Assembly (NCBI RefSeq): GCF_014696715.1
Contig: NZ_JACJQO010000019.1
Location: 310,001 to 374,000, forward strand
Direction: 5' to 3'
Length of the DNA: 64,000 nt
Source of the DNA: Pseudanabaena sp. FACHB-2040
GTDB lineage: Bacteria; Cyanobacteriota; Cyanobacteriia; Phormidesmidales; Phormidesmidaceae
In this document: one piece after another, positions 5,499-48,963 of the stretch
Numbering within the stretch: the stretch's first letter is position 1
How the letters are laid out: every line of letters starts with the position of its first letter
The notes under the pieces: model-generated
What the model saw: only the letters and a program-made list of their open reading frames with translations
What the model was told of the DNA's origin: nothing
Databases searched by the model: none
Position numbers and translations under genes: made by a program

Positions 5499-5990
5499 TT
5501 AAGCAGCAATAGAGCTGAGTAGCTTGTCTAGAATCTGACGGCTCAGATCGTCAACCTGCTGCTGCAGCGTACCTAGAGCAGCCTGCTTTTGTTCGTCTAG
5601 TTCCCGCTGGACCTGCTCTCGCTGAGCCTGAGCTTCTTGCTGAGCCTCAGCAATGGTTTTAGCAGCCATTTTCTGGGCAGACTCTTGAGCATCTGCAATA
5701 ACAGACTGCACCTTGCGGCGAGAATCGGCCAGTTCTTGCTCGTACTGCTTTGCCAACTGCTCAGCCTTGGCTAGACGCTCTTGAGCATCAACTTTATTGT
5801 TACGGACGTAGCTATCCCGCTCGTCAATTGCCTTGCCCAACGGCTTATAAAAAATAGCGTTGAGAATAACCGCCAGCAAAATAAACTGAACGGCCATCAA
5901 GGGCAGAGTGGCATCTAGGTCAAACAGACCCCCACCCTCTTCTGCTGCTTCTGCTGCTTCTACGGCTAATAGCCAGATCGAGTCAATCAT
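5499..5990 (-). CDS. atpF2: ATP synthase Fo subunit b' (cyanobacterial atpG)
   Basis: Second, diverged copy of subunit b. From ATG 5990 it is 163 residues: an acidic start ([23 protein letters not shown]), one membrane helix ([21 protein letters not shown]) and a coiled coil. An in-frame upstream ATG at 6047 exists, but ATG 5990 has a GGGAGGGT Shine-Dalgarno just before it and matches family length. It lies between the c and b genes, as in chloroplast and cyanobacterial operons. A hairpin precedes it. Confidence 0.93.
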
Positions 5991-25461: not shown

Positions 25462-26736
25462 TTATTCCTCTTCGTCAAACTCCTCCTCGGATTCTTCCTC
25501 CTCAAATTCGTCCTCAGATTCTTCCTCTTCGAACTCCTCCTCCTCGGATTCTTCCTCTTCGGATTCCTCCTCTTCAAACTCTTCTTCGTCCTCAGATTCT
25601 TCTTCGGACTCCTCTTCAGATTCCCCTTCGTCCGTGTTGCCGTAGCTGAAGCCGTACTCTTCGTCCGTCGCGTATTCCTGACAAAGGGTGTCTAGCTCAC
25701 CTATGAATTCGGTAGCATCGTCAATCGTGAGATCGAAGTTGAGGACATTCACCAAATGGGTGCCGTCTTCCGATTCCTCGTATTCATAGTCGAAGTAATA
25801 GTCTTCTTCGGCTTCGACGTAGCCTTGGCAAAGTTCATCGAGTGCTCCAACGAAGCCCTCTGGATCTTCAGTGCAGACGTAAAACTCATAGAGCAAGAGA
25901 GAGCCATCGTCGGCAAAGAAGGACTCGTCTTCTTCCCAAACTTCGGCGCTAAAGTCGAGGTCGCTCAGCGCTTTGATAATCCAGGAGTCGTGAGCGTTGT
26001 AGTCACAGTGAATGACGTAGTCGTAGGGAATGTAGCAGTAGCCTTGGTCGCCCCACGCCGGCCCCCAGGAGTTGCGCACAATAAACATGCGGTCTTTGTC
26101 GGAGTAGCCAACGCACAGCATGGCGTGCCAGCCGTGGGTTTCGCGCACGTTGTCAGACCGCTTGGGCATGGGTACCCGGCCCCGGCTGCGGGTAGCGTCG
26201 TCAAATGATTCAAAGGTGTTGAGGGCAAAGGCGATGGGGTAGCCTTCAGCTAGGGTATGCCGCCACAGGTCGAGGTCAGTTTCGATCACCTCTGCCTCGA
26301 CGATTTTGAAGTTGGCCGCGTGCTCGTAGGCACTGGCATCCGGCTCTGTAAAAATTAGCCCCTCGTCGTTAGGCCAGAGATCTTCTGAGCAGGCCCCATG
26401 ATGAATCAGGCTCTCGATGGCGCAGTACATCTGGGTGCCGCCGTCTTCGTTTTGGCGGCCCGATTGCGATCGCGCATTGTAGTAAACAAACAGGCGGCTC
26501 ACATCAGCAGCATCGCCCAAGTCACGTTTAGCCAGGTACTCATAAGCCCCGACAAAGGCATTGGCCACGCAGCTACTGCCAACCTGCTCCTCCACCTCGG
26601 TCATGTGCTTTCGCAGATCCACCTTGTGCGGCAGCTGGTCTTTGCCAAACCGACCTGCCTGGTGGTGCTTAGCATTGTCTGGTTTTTGACCAGCTTGGTA
26701 GCCACCTATGCGAAACTTTCGGGTCTGCGTGAACAT
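25462..26736 (-). CDS. Papain-like C1 peptidase with polyacidic tail
   Basis: 424 residues, no signal peptide. Catalytic set of the C1A fold: Gln51 and Cys56 in EEQVGSSCVANAF, His204 in HGWHAMLCVGY, Asn222 in VRNSWGPAWG. Residues 282-365 hold two related units (FYVCTEDPEGFVGALDELCQ and VLNFDLTIDDATEFIGELDTLC). From about residue 369 to the end the chain is almost only Glu, Ser and Asp. AGAAGG precedes ATG 26736. The tail is encoded by GAA/GAG/TCC-type repeats and may vary in length. Cytosolic by lack of signal; role unknown. Confidence 0.85.
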   Translation of the reverse strand: MFTQTRKFRIGGYQAGQKPDNAKHHQAGRFGKDQLPHKVDLRKHMTEVEEQVGSSCVANAFVGAYEYLAKRDLGDAADVSRLFVYYNARSQSGRQNEDGGTQMYCAIESLIHHGACSEDLWPNDEGLIFTEPDASAYEHAANFKIVEAEVIETDLDLWRHTLAEGYPIAFALNTFESFDDATRSRGRVPMPKRSDNVRETHGWHAMLCVGYSDKDRMFIVRNSWGPAWGDQGYCYIPYDYVIHCDYNAHDSWIIKALSDLDFSAEVWEEDESFFADDGSLLLYEFYVCTEDPEGFVGALDELCQGYVEAEEDYYFDYEYEESEDGTHLVNVLNFDLTIDDATEFIGELDTLCQEYATDEEYGFSYGNTDEGESEEESEEESEDEEEFEEEESEEEESEEEEFEEEESEDEFEEEESEEEFDEEE

Positions 26737-27199: not shown

Positions 27200-27544
27200 A
27201 GTCACCTCCAATGCGGGTGAGAACCCGTTGGTTAATATTTCCCACTAACTGCTGCACAGGCTCTTTGCAGCCTATGCACTTAACCCGAAGCGTACGAACA
27301 CTGTAGGACAGCAAGACCAGCAGATAAACCAGAGCAAAATAGCCCTGCCGCAGGTGAAGCTTATATCAGAAGTAATTAAACGGTGACATTAAATCAGAGC
27401 AACCGTATCCCTGAATACTTATTAACCCGTTATCCGTTGATAAAAACTTAAACAGGCAACATTTAAGAAGTGCTCAAAAAAGTATTTATTCCCAATGCTT
27501 TTCTAGCGCTTTTAGCTGTTTGCGGATTGCAGAAATTTAAGGTC
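27200..27544. promoter_or_regulatory. Divergent intergenic region, upstream part
   Basis: About 345 bases of mostly AT-richer DNA between the divergent zinc/membrane protein gene and the riboswitch. No reading frame or strong hairpin was seen. It must contain promoters for both sides, but no consensus promoter is convincing by eye. Confidence 0.4.
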
Positions 27545-27660
27545 ATAGTGTCTAGGGTTCCGGCTTAGCTCGCAGTTAAGTGTCTGGTCCAAGAGATGCT
27601 GCCAAGTCAAATCTTTATGGATTTAACTTGGTTCACGGAGGGATAAAAGCCCGGGAGAAA
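27545..27660 (+). ncRNA. Guanidine-I (ykkC type) riboswitch aptamer
   Basis: Cis-regulatory RNA 96 nt before the sodium symporter start. Conserved ykkC elements appear in order: CTAGGGTTCCGGC (27552-27564), CTGGTCCAAGAGATG (27584-27598), a variable hairpin closed by CCAAGT/ACTTGG, then CACGGAGGGATAAAAG (27634-27649) and CCCGGGAGA (27650-27658). These blocks and their order are those of the ykkC family, whose main subtype senses free guanidine and turns genes on. Minor subtypes with other ligands (ppGpp, PRPP) exist, so the ligand is inferred. Confidence 0.88.
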
Positions 27661-27703
27661 GTAGCTAATCGCGCTGTAGATTAGTATCTTTCCCTCGGGC
27701 TTT
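27646..27703 (+). terminator. Riboswitch expression platform: terminator-like hairpin
   Basis: Left arm 27646-27670 (begins AAAGCCCGGGAGAAAG) and right arm 27679-27703 (ends TTTCCCTCGGGCTTT) pair in 22 of 25 positions, counting two G-T pairs. The left arm includes the aptamer's 3' conserved segment CCCGGGAGA, so folding of the hairpin and ligand binding exclude each other, as in other ykkC ON-switches. The right arm is followed by GCTGTACC rather than a T-run, so this may work as a weak terminator or by another mechanism. Confidence 0.75.
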
Positions 27704-27755
27704 GCTGTACCTCGCCGCTCAAAGATTACGGGTTTAGTCTTAGGAGATCAGGCGT

Positions 27756-29255
27756 ATGGAAAACACAGTTTTTTCCTGGGGAATTATTTCATTCCTCCTA
27801 GGAACACTGGGGATAGGGGTTTGGGCTTCGAAGCAGGTAAAAGGTGACAGTGAGAATTTTTTAGTGGCAGGGCGGGGACTTTCCTTGCCTTTGGCCGCTG
27901 CTACGCTAATGGCACAGTCGGTTGATTCTAATGCCACCTTGGGCAACACCGATTTGGCGGCAGAATTTGGCTTTTGGGCCGGGGCAGCACTGCCTATGGG
28001 TCTAGCAATGTGTTTGTTCTTAGCAGGCACGTTTTTTGCTAAACCCATGAACCGTATGGGGCTAATGACCCTGCCAGATTTTTACCGAATTAAATACAAC
28101 CGCATCACTGAGGTTGTAGCTGCCATCATCATGGTGATTAGTTTCTCGTTTCTATTAGCGGGGAATTTGGTGGCCGGGGGCTATATCTTCCAAACCTTTT
28201 TGGGCATGAGCTATGTTGGCGGCGTTACCATGCTGGCCACTTTAGTGTTTGTATACACGGCTTCTGGTGGGCTTTTTGCCGTAGCCTACACAGATGCTAT
28301 CCAGCTACTGATTGCTCTAGTCGGGTCTTTAGGTGTGCTCACCTATCTCGCCCTTACGTTTGGTCTAGGGGCTGACTCTGGCATGGGGCCTCTGGCGCTT
28401 GATCAGCTAACGTCGGTAGGATCTGGGGCGGCGATTAATTGGGCTAGCATTTTAGCCCTGGGGTTTGGCAACTTGGTGGCTATTGACTTTATGGCCAGGA
28501 TTTTTGCAGCTGAGAGCCCACAAACTGCTCGCAGGGCTTGTTTTACCGCTGCTGTAGGCACGCTTGTGATTGGTATTCCATTTTCTATTGTTGCTTTGTC
28601 GGCAAACCGGATTTTGGATCAGGCTGGAATTACGCCAGACGGCCCTATTCTGTTTAGCTTGATTCAAAATGTGGTGCCTCCGTTTTTGGCATTACTGGTT
28701 ATTGCTGCTATTTTGTCAGCGTCTCTCTCAACAGCAGACGGTGCTATTCTCGGCACGTCTTCGGTACTGGCTCACAACGTACTAGGCATTCGCCACAATA
28801 CGGCTCAAGGAGTGGGAGGCGATAGGCTACTGCTCATTACGCGCCTCATGGCCGTATTTATCACGCTGCTGGGCGTGTTTCTGGCCCTGGTTGTGCCCCA
28901 GACTGGCGTGCTGCTGCTGCTGGCCTTTGACCTTAGCTTTGCGGGATTGGTGGGGCCTTTGGCGGGGGGGCTATTTTGGTCTCGATCCACTTGGCAGGGG
29001 GCGTTGGCCTGCATTGTCGCTGGGTCGCTGACACGGCTGACGTTCTTTGTCTTAATGCCGACGATGTTTGGGGTTGACAATACGCTGCTGCACATTTCCA
29101 ATGGGCTTTTTACGCCTGACTTTGACGGGTTTCCGACTTTGATTAGCCCGCTGGTAGGTCTAGTTGCGTTTGTTGGAGTTTCTAATCTGACTTACAAGCC
29201 GTTGAGCCCTGAACAGCAACAGGCAGAGTTAAAAAAGAGTATCCATACGCTATAG
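27756..29255 (+). CDS. Sodium:solute symporter family transporter
   Basis: 499 residues, about 13 hydrophobic helices. SSS-family features: VAGRGLSLPLAAATLMAQSVDSNATLG near helix 2, YTASGGLFAVAYTDAIQLLI in the middle, and LSASLSTADGAILGTSSVLAHN with the Ser/Thr-rich sodium-site helix. AGGAGAT precedes ATG 27756. It lies directly under the ykkC-type riboswitch, so the substrate is predicted to be guanidine or a guanidine/urea-like compound (inference). The family includes proline, pantothenate, sialic acid and urea transporters. Confidence 0.88.
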   Translation: MENTVFSWGIISFLLGTLGIGVWASKQVKGDSENFLVAGRGLSLPLAAATLMAQSVDSNATLGNTDLAAEFGFWAGAALPMGLAMCLFLAGTFFAKPMNRMGLMTLPDFYRIKYNRITEVVAAIIMVISFSFLLAGNLVAGGYIFQTFLGMSYVGGVTMLATLVFVYTASGGLFAVAYTDAIQLLIALVGSLGVLTYLALTFGLGADSGMGPLALDQLTSVGSGAAINWASILALGFGNLVAIDFMARIFAAESPQTARRACFTAAVGTLVIGIPFSIVALSANRILDQAGITPDGPILFSLIQNVVPPFLALLVIAAILSASLSTADGAILGTSSVLAHNVLGIRHNTAQGVGGDRLLLITRLMAVFITLLGVFLALVVPQTGVLLLLAFDLSFAGLVGPLAGGLFWSRSTWQGALACIVAGSLTRLTFFVLMPTMFGVDNTLLHISNGLFTPDFDGFPTLISPLVGLVAFVGVSNLTYKPLSPEQQQAELKKSIHTL

Positions 29256-29578: not shown

Positions 29579-30127
29579 ATGACAATTCCGTTACTTGTTG
29601 TAGACGTGCAAACAGGATTTATTAATGACTTTACCCATCATATTCCTCAACGGGTTGCTCGTTTAATTAAGCAGAAGATCTACTCTCCCTTATTATTCAC
29701 TCGCTTCATCAATTCAGCGGAGGGGCCTTATACACGCTTTCTCAAGTGGGACGGCTGTAATGAGGCACCTGAAACAGATTTATCGGAAGACTTAGCTCCC
29801 TACATTAAGCCTGAGTTCGTTTTTAGTAAACGGGGATTATGCGGGATGCCAATTGAGTTGGTGGATTATCTCTGTGACCGGCAAACTCAGCAGGTTGCTG
29901 TCGTGGGGATCGACACAGATATGTGTGTGTTAAAAATTGCGATGGATTTGTTTGACCGGGGCATTGAGCCGATTGTGTTGACTGATTGCTGTGCCAGTAC
30001 TGCGGGGTTGCAGGCTCATCTAGCGGGGTTAGCGGTTCTTAGCCGCAATATTGGAGCTCAGCGGTTGCGAGATGCGGGTCTGGGAGGAGGAACCCTTGCC
30101 GCTCCTATGGTGAATGGGGGCAATTAA
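29579..30127 (+). CDS. Isochorismatase-family cysteine hydrolase
   Basis: 182 residues. Catalytic triad positions of the family: Asp9 in LLVVDVQTGF, the lysine in VFSKRGLCGM, and the nucleophile Cys in GIDTDMCVLKIAMD. The family includes isochorismatase, nicotinamidase, N-carbamoylsarcosine amidase and biuret hydrolase; this one lacks clear nicotinamidase metal ligands. The gene is visibly more AT-rich than neighbours and is bracketed by two copies of the same palindromic element. Downstream of the riboswitch-controlled symporter, an amidase for a guanidine- or urea-related compound is a reasonable guess, no more. Confidence 0.82.
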   Translation: MTIPLLVVDVQTGFINDFTHHIPQRVARLIKQKIYSPLLFTRFINSAEGPYTRFLKWDGCNEAPETDLSEDLAPYIKPEFVFSKRGLCGMPIELVDYLCDRQTQQVAVVGIDTDMCVLKIAMDLFDRGIEPIVLTDCCASTAGLQAHLAGLAVLSRNIGAQRLRDAGLGGGTLAAPMVNGGN

Positions 30128-48749: not shown

Positions 48750-48818
48750 TTACGTTCCATTGCGTGGCCACACCCGCGTGATATGCTGACCAATGCTAAG
48801 CCAGTTCCGGTGGGGACC

Positions 48819-48934
48819 AGCCATCGGGCGCTTTGTCATTTTGACGAGCGGGGGAAAGTCCGGTGTCAGTCCGGCACTGTCCCGCAGCTGTGATGAAAAG
48901 CCCAGCTTTTCTAAGTCAGAATGCCCGCTGGCGA
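48819..48934 (+). ncRNA. Cobalamin (B12) riboswitch
   Basis: Conserved core in order: GGGGGAAAGTCCGGTGTCAG from about 48850, TCCGGCACTGTCCCGCAGCTG (48870-48890), and the B12 box AAGTCAGAATGCCCGC (48913-48928). P1 pairs GCCATCGGGC (48820-48829) with GCCCGCTGGC (48923-48932), 9 of 10. These are the standard cobalamin riboswitch elements. It ends 29 nt before the hupE start, so it probably blocks hupE-cobW translation or transcription when cobalamin is plentiful. Confidence 0.93.
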
Positions 48935-48963
48935 TCGCTTTGTTCCCCATCTGCGAGGTACAG

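Follow-up and report, generated by a model that had tools for sequence, protein, structure and literature searches.

A riboswitch-controlled sodium:solute symporter as a candidate guanidinium importer in Pseudanabaena sp. FACHB-2040

We analysed a stretch of 64,000 nucleotides from the cyanobacterium Pseudanabaena sp. FACHB-2040 (contig NZ_JACJQO010000019.1, positions 310,001 to 374,000; referred to below as the window), in which a Guanidine-I (ykkC) riboswitch precedes a gene for a protein of the sodium:solute symporter (SSS) family. Genome comparison suggests, with a probability that we put at roughly 0.78, that this symporter is a Na+-coupled guanidinium importer, encoded in a guanidine-inducible one-gene operon and able to replace the ATP-binding cassette (ABC) route of guanidine uptake. 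A sodium-driven guanidine importer had already been proposed in an initial annotation made from the DNA letters alone. This proposal gains support from the linkage of such symporters to guanidine riboswitches and to gdmH, the gene for the arginase-family Ni guanidine hydrolase GdmH, in several phyla and arrangements. It also agrees with the negative association between symporter and ABC importer and with the conservation of the Na2 site and of acidic residues where the substrate is predicted to bind. The gene provides a concrete candidate for a single-gene Na+-coupled guanidine importer, with predicted cation-holding residues and in culturable hosts. If the assignment is right, it would account for guanidine use by gdmH-bearing cyanobacteria without an ABC importer. 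The sequence marker described below extends to Actinobacteria and haloarchaea, where the records say 'sodium:solute symporter' and 'agmatinase family'.

The riboswitch and the symporter of the window

In a cmscan search of the window against Rfam 15, the family RF00442 was matched at E = 1.9e-13 with 83.7 bits, above its gathering score of 63. The alignment covers model positions 1-107 of 107 with the conserved blocks of the consensus intact, and no other Rfam family exceeded its threshold at these positions. The initial annotation had called a ykkC-type riboswitch from four conserved blocks lying 96 nt before the transporter gene, and it was borne out in all these respects: the score lies above the threshold, the four blocks are found on the + strand at 27552, 27584, 27634, and 27650 and nowhere else in the window, and the ATG indeed follows the last base of the aptamer after 96 nt. 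Across 22 aligned Guanidine-I aptamers of the class Cyanobacteriia, the one of the window included, 44 columns are identical.

The aptamer is followed by an attenuator hairpin (Table 1). The 3' strand of the aptamer (AAAGCCCGGG) serves as the 5' arm of this hairpin, which therefore excludes the ligand-bound fold. The 77 nt from 27636 to 27712 fold at -34.7 kcal/mol (z -4.96). The outer stem is present in 20 of 20 aligned leaders located directly before a symporter gene, with single pairs broken in 3 cells of the alignment. In the apical stem, 5 pairs vary on both sides, and every one of these is disrupted or gapped in 2-5 rows. A T-run behind the hairpin was seen in several relatives, and GGAG is the consensus of the 20 leaders at the Shine-Dalgarno-like position. 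On-switches of the Guanidine-I class are usually built in this way, with a mutually exclusive hairpin that takes up the 3' strand of the aptamer. Therefore, by analogy, guanidine should act as the inducer and switch the symporter gene on.

Table 1. Leader elements and symporter gene in the window (position 1 is the first letter of the stretch)
Feature	Positions	Strand	Basis
Guanidine-I (ykkC) riboswitch aptamer	27541..27659	+	RF00442 match, 83.7 bits, full length
Attenuator hairpin	27646..27703	+	fold energy; stem kept in aligned leaders
Shine-Dalgarno-like AGGAG	27742..27746	+	read from sequence
SSS-family symporter, predicted Na+/guanidinium importer, 499 aa	27756..29255	+	PF00474 1.9e-31; AlphaFold model; gdmH/Guanidine-I linkage

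The protein matches PF00474 (SSF) with 109.8 bits against a cut-off of 22.8, in agreement with its earlier description as an SSS-family transporter. None of the NCBIfam models exceeded its own cut-off for the 499-residue protein, and the known SSS groups that were considered all scored far below theirs: PutP reached 105.8 of 515.5 bits, PanF 84.6 of 328.05, and the subfamily model of ActP 33 of 750. An AlphaFold model (40 sequences, pLDDT 87.9) had human CHT1, the choline transporter, as its closest fold in the PDB (Foldseek E 4.3e-17), with superpositions of Z 46.5 over 461 residues at 2.8 A and Z 47.5 over 473 residues at 3.9 A. The folds of SiaT, SGLT, and NIS also match. As in the SSS/LeuT-type fold, transmembrane helix (TM) 1 of the model is broken at residues 56-57 and TM6 at 242. 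According to passages of a review of the SSS family, the unwound parts of these two helices always contribute residues to substrate binding (PMC7918813).

In the model, D57 lies in the TM1 break and D244 two residues past the TM6 break. We followed both residues through a subfamily alignment of 81 rows (46 cyanobacterial, 14 actinobacterial, and 21 haloarchaeal). D244 is kept in all 81, and D57 in 45 of the 46 cyanobacterial rows (the remaining one has a gap) as well as in 14 of 14 actinobacterial and 21 of 21 haloarchaeal rows. The Na2-site pair S325/T326 in core TM8, which aligns with the Ser-Ser of vSGLT, is likewise kept in 81 of 81 rows. The counterparts of D57 and D244 are Gly/Ala in CHT1, Ser/Gly in vSGLT, and Gly/Gly in the paralog from the same genome; this second SSF protein (L204) thus lacks both acidic residues and forms a very distant row in the alignment. 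Two fixed carboxylates beside a kept Na+ site would suit a small cation such as guanidinium. From their position and conservation, D57 and D244 are the likely cation ligands.

The next gene in 3' direction (29579-30127) encodes a protein with an isochorismatase fold, which matches a model of biuret amidohydrolase only weakly (31.6 bits against 370). An operon of this gene with the symporter gene was considered and rejected: at 122 other symporter loci, the fetched stretches contained no homolog of it (tblastn, E<=1e-8). Therefore, the regulated unit is most likely the symporter gene alone, as judged from this comparison of loci.

Guanidine genes and symporters in Cyanobacteriia

The genome of Pseudanabaena sp. 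FACHB-2040 carries a second Guanidine-I riboswitch (63.9 bits) on the same contig, about 92 kb upstream of the one in the window. It heads an arginase-family gene (gdmH), a HypA gene (hypA), and a gene of the HypB/CobW type (hypB). The genes beyond these three lie on the opposite strand, and ABC genes do not directly follow. The arginase-family protein matches the PDB entries 7esr/7oi1 at 4e-240; these are deposited as 'Probable agmatinase 2', and we take them to be the GdmH of Synechocystis. Urease is present in the genome. The binding protein of a guanidine ABC importer gave no match in it, neither with a type 1 query at 1e-70 nor with a type 2 query at 1e-30. Because the gdmH operon contains no ABC genes and the ABC binding protein remained unmatched, the genome presents a degradation operon without an importer and, elsewhere, a lone transporter under riboswitch control. 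The small multidrug resistance (SMR) family was represented by a single match barely over threshold (24.2 vs 23.7 bits).

We next describe the distribution of the symporter in a sample of 388 genomes of the class, including that of the window. At a threshold of E<=1e-60, relatives of the symporter occur in 43 genomes, and RF00442 in 205. All 43 symporter loci (the window and L064-L105) were fetched and classified by script, and riboswitches in them were searched for with a covariance model (R1) built from 22 aptamers out of an initial set of 32. An own Guanidine-I leader within 450 nt was found at 25 of the 43 loci. At 22 of these, the symporter gene stands alone behind the riboswitch, and the other 3 also have a divergent gdmH. 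At a further 6 loci, the symporter gene is located downstream in a riboswitch-headed gdmH operon, and one symporter belongs to a gdmH operon for which no riboswitch was found. The initial annotation had regarded the symporter as a non-standard target; with 25 of 43 loci under an own leader, it is a recurrent target and no single case. Chance pairing was dismissed as an explanation, since a rough estimate puts the expectation at about 1 in 10,000 per genome. This figure ignores common descent, and we therefore rely on the variety of arrangements.

One such arrangement is the order riboswitch-gdmH-hypA-hypB-symporter, which was found in L087, L088, L092, and L096 and in Kaiparowitsia implicata (L152). 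Xenococcus sp. PCC 7305 (L137) has the same operon order with one extra open reading frame (ORF) behind gdmH. Many of the named loci (L123-L167) duplicate records of the class genomes, for which reason the two tallies were not summed. Two low-scoring Guanidine-I-like leaders among the 22 of lone symporter genes (L080:6785-6906 and L081:6577-6697) may be decaying switches or variants with another ligand. In L090, L093, L094, and L102, a symporter gene without riboswitch is preceded by an ORF of ~474-493 aa, which encodes a major facilitator superfamily (MFS) transporter in L090 and L102, the two tested. The named counterparts of this group of loci (L143, L145, and L159) belong to Acaryochloris.

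The symporter co-occurs with gdmH, which is present in 38 of the 43 symporter genomes vs 121 of the 345 others (Fisher p 1.2e-11). Within the 159 gdmH-positive genomes, the guanidine ABC binding protein shows the opposite tendency: it is encoded by 20 of 38 genomes with symporter vs 105 of 121 without (p 2.7e-5), and is accordingly missing from 18 of 38 and 16 of 121, respectively. Counted by the majority within each of 85 genera, ABC-positive and ABC-negative genera number 7 and 12 with symporter vs 56 and 10 without (p 9.3e-5). The negative association holds inside the family of the Pseudanabaena strain (p 0.014) as well as outside it (p 6.7e-4).

Initially, 16 gdmH-positive genomes seemed to have neither the type 1 ABC importer nor the symporter. 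Stretches were taken from 12 of them, as 13 loci (G054, G056, G081, and G291 were left out), and a second, more distant ABC type was found in such genomes. Among the 34 ABC-negative gdmH-positive genomes, this second type was detected at E<=5.8e-141 in 8 of the 16 that had neither importer and in 0 of the 18 with symporter. G024, G159, and G233 contain proteins 41-46% identical to it, and G113 one of 32% identity. With the second type counted, the comparison becomes 20 of 38 vs 113 of 121 (p 6.6e-8). In a less favourable count, in which G024, G159, G233, and G334 were also taken as ABC and G113 was kept as ABC-negative, p was 2.0e-6. Taken together, genome comparison gives good support to the view that the symporter belongs to the known guanidine regulon and that a Na+ symporter can there substitute for the importer.

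Relatives in Actinobacteria and haloarchaea

A scan of GTDB species genomes yielded 174 symporter relatives, of which the best 80 were kept. The 14 actinobacterial loci were scanned with all Rfam families and the haloarchaeal loci with model R1 only. Among these best 80 of 174 relatives, 7 of the 14 actinobacterial loci have both a Guanidine-I riboswitch and a GdmH of 60-70% identity beside the symporter. In the other 7, no guanidine riboswitch was found in the Rfam scan and no gdmH in the fetched stretch. The mycobacterial loci L195-L197 carry a Guanidine-III riboswitch on gdmH and a Guanidine-I riboswitch on the divergent symporter gene, so that enzyme and transporter each have a guanidine sensor of a different class. 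The two aptamers lie back to back between the divergent genes, at about 5612-5910. On a plasmid of Rubrobacter indicoceani, the order is riboswitch (66.8 bits with R1), gdmH homolog (62% identity, annotated 'agmatinase family'), symporter, fmdA on the other strand, and urease genes.

In the haloarchaea, an arginase-family gene lies within 2 kb of the symporter gene at 20 of 21 loci, and its product is 34-36% identical to GdmH. No riboswitch was found with R1 at any of the 21 loci. In the four haloarchaeal loci looked at, a protein with a MazE/AbrB or PhoU domain is encoded between the enzyme and symporter genes. One haloarchaeal enzyme compared to the PDB matched GdmH best (1.1e-58), followed by guanidinobutyrase (1.3e-46), which suggests that it shares its substrate with GdmH. 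The symporter tree groups largely by phylum. We consider it possible, at somewhat less than even odds, that these proteins form a subfamily of sodium-driven guanidinium symporters across Cyanobacteria, Actinobacteria, and haloarchaea, marked in all three by D-x-N-A-T-L-G-N in TM1 and A-x-D-F in TM6. In haloarchaea, it would mark a pathway for guanidine or a near relative of it, with an arginase-family hydrolase of its own and the MazE/PhoU-domain protein as a possible regulator. A formamidase gene, fmdA, is located near the symporter in Rubrobacter indicoceani (L207:10556-11800) and Haloarcula marismortui (L208:12207-13478), a hint at a link to formamide or formamidine.

Some further observations concern other guanidine clusters. 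At L109:881-6721 (G229:C20) and L122:802-6566 (G335:C493), a Guanidine-I riboswitch heads a gene resembling type III glutamine synthetase, ABC genes of the guanidine type, and a Rieske oxygenase gene; the oxygenase was seen in L109, and the copy in L122 is 90% identical. The glutamine synthetase-like protein matches TIGR03105 with 572-589 bits in L118 and L109. Its gene lies within the gdmH operon in L118 and L119, and homologs are found near gdmH or ABC genes in L216-L218, L220, and L221. A Rieske gene near a guanidine cluster is mentioned for marine Synechococcus in passages of PMC10119275. The cluster with the Rieske gene possibly serves in N-demethylation of methylguanidine. Elsewhere in the window, a Cobalamin riboswitch (RF00174, 41.5 bits) was found at 48811-48946 (+), and a protein with a papain-family (PF00112) protease domain and a long, repetitive C-terminal tail rich in Glu and Asp is encoded at 25462-26736 (-).

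Proposed mechanism, alternatives and known systems

As inferred from the conserved, mutually exclusive fold, in the absence of guanidine the 3' strand of the aptamer would pair downstream in the long hairpin and transcription would stop early. With guanidine bound, the aptamer would keep this strand and the symporter would be made. It would then import guanidinium, driven by the Na+ gradient, and D57 and D244, where TM1 and TM6 unwind, would be the likely cation ligands. GdmH, produced from the second riboswitch operon ~92 kb away, would convert guanidine to urea and ammonium, and urease would then split the urea.

The following observations weigh against this assignment. Regarding the switch itself, the hairpin of the window is followed by a weak T-run only and does not appear in the list of a terminator scan. 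The protein scores 110.6 bits with TIGR00813 (sss), below the cut-off of 184, though model positions 1-411 of 411 are matched, and D180, although conserved in the other groups, is replaced by Ala or Ser in 13 of 14 actinobacterial rows. Within the class, both riboswitch and gdmH are missing from the fetched locus of 11 of the 43 symporters. The leaders of L080 and L081 reach just 31.8 and 38.1 bits although the symporters behind them are full length, and no gdmH was found at E<=1e-120 in five symporter genomes (G188, G210, G317, G341, and G344; 86-97% complete). Since 20 of the 38 gdmH-positive symporter genomes also have an ABC binding protein, replacement of the ABC importer is a tendency and no rule, and the statistics treat genomes or genera as independent. 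Outside the class, a divergent gdmH (63% identity) accompanies the symporter of Nonomuraea gerenzanensis (L209), where Guanidine-I gave no match, 20 haloarchaeal loci offer the distant enzyme only, and 8 of 35 non-cyanobacterial loci lack both a riboswitch and an arginase-family match.

The symporter might instead carry a close relative of guanidine, such as methylguanidine, formamidine, agmatine, or a different guanidino compound, and this substrate would be converted to guanidine or sensed through it. The low identity of just 34-36% between the haloarchaeal neighbour enzyme and GdmH and the proximity of fmdA in Haloarcula marismortui and Rubrobacter indicoceani speak for this idea, and a methylguanidine pathway under guanidine riboswitches is known (PMC12508155). 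We nevertheless regard it as unlikely, since GdmH itself is the recurrent partner in cyanobacteria and actinobacteria whereas other enzymes occur at some loci only; the one haloarchaeal enzyme compared to the PDB also has GdmH as its best relative there, though with guanidinobutyrase next. The presence of urease genes next to the symporter in Rubrobacter, together with urea being the product of GdmH, could instead point to reuptake of urea leaked after GdmH action, comparable to urea import by plant DUR3 of the same family. Structures of DUR3 are indeed among the fold matches (Z 25.9-33.1), but CHT1 fits better (Z up to 47.5), the predicted site, with its two invariant Asp residues, suits a cation, and a urea importer would not be required to show a negative association with the guanidine ABC importer, which makes this explanation very improbable.

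We assign an even slimmer chance to export of guanidine for detoxification. Guanidine riboswitches often control exporters such as Gdx (passages of PMC12186494), and the genome of the window has only its single, barely over-threshold SMR match. However, SSS proteins are described in passages of PMC7918813 as using the sodium gradient for uphill solute transport, and import is consistent with both the linkage to the gene of a guanidine-degrading enzyme and the negative association with the ABC importer. Guanidinium import therefore remains our preferred assignment.

Within the searched literature on guanidine, riboswitch, or GdmH importers, we found no description of an SSS guanidine importer, an earlier remark in full texts or supplements being possible. 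Such a protein is absent from the passages of PMC12186494, PMC11410670, PMC12342949, PMC12508155, PMC8390497, PMC12930504, PMC2211319, PMC9699525, PMC7918813, PMC11018352, PMC10119275, and PMC10094980 that were available, and 'guanidin' has 0 occurrences in the text of the SSS review PMC7918813. A passage of PMC12508155 states that no study has addressed guanidine importers. ABC import of guanidine is described for Synechocystis, Raoultella, and Klebsiella (PMC12186494), and a guanidine permease of the amino acid-polyamine-organocation (APC) superfamily is predicted for Nitrospira inopinata (PMC11410670). The initial annotation had suggested nitrogen scavenging outside the known ABC route. The importer part of this suggestion is supported, but ABC transport is not the sole described route, given the APC permease predicted in comammox Nitrospira (PMC11410670).

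The Synechocystis ABC importer sll1080-sll1082 resembles the system of the window in its Guanidine-I control, its linkage to gdmH-hypA-hypB, and its presumed import of guanidine (passages of PMC8390497, PMC12186494, PMC10119275, and PMC10094980). It differs in comprising three genes, in being ATP-driven, and in using a binding protein, whereas the window encodes one protein of an unrelated Na+-coupled family. The permease of comammox Nitrospira is closer in layout, as a single secondary transporter directly behind a Guanidine-I riboswitch, accompanied by a guanidinase and predicted to be an importer (passages of PMC11410670). In contrast to the SSS/SLC5 protein of the window with its conserved Na2 site, it belongs to the APC superfamily and possibly uses proton symport. 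The proline symporter PutP provides the highest-scoring equivalog model in NCBIfam, although at 105.8 bits against the cut-off of 515.5. The PutP residue matching D57 is, as we assume, Ser57, which presumably matters for proline. Gdx/SMR proteins are exporters with a four-helix SMR fold unrelated to SSS. They share with the proposed importer the property of being guanidinium carriers under guanidine riboswitches (passages of PMC12186494). The best relative in the PDB, in both sequence and fold, is human CHT1 (SLC5A7). CHT1 carries out the Na+-coupled import of an organic cation, choline. It is only ~24% identical to the symporter, and its Trp positions, which we take to form the choline cage, correspond to Ser55 and Ala242.

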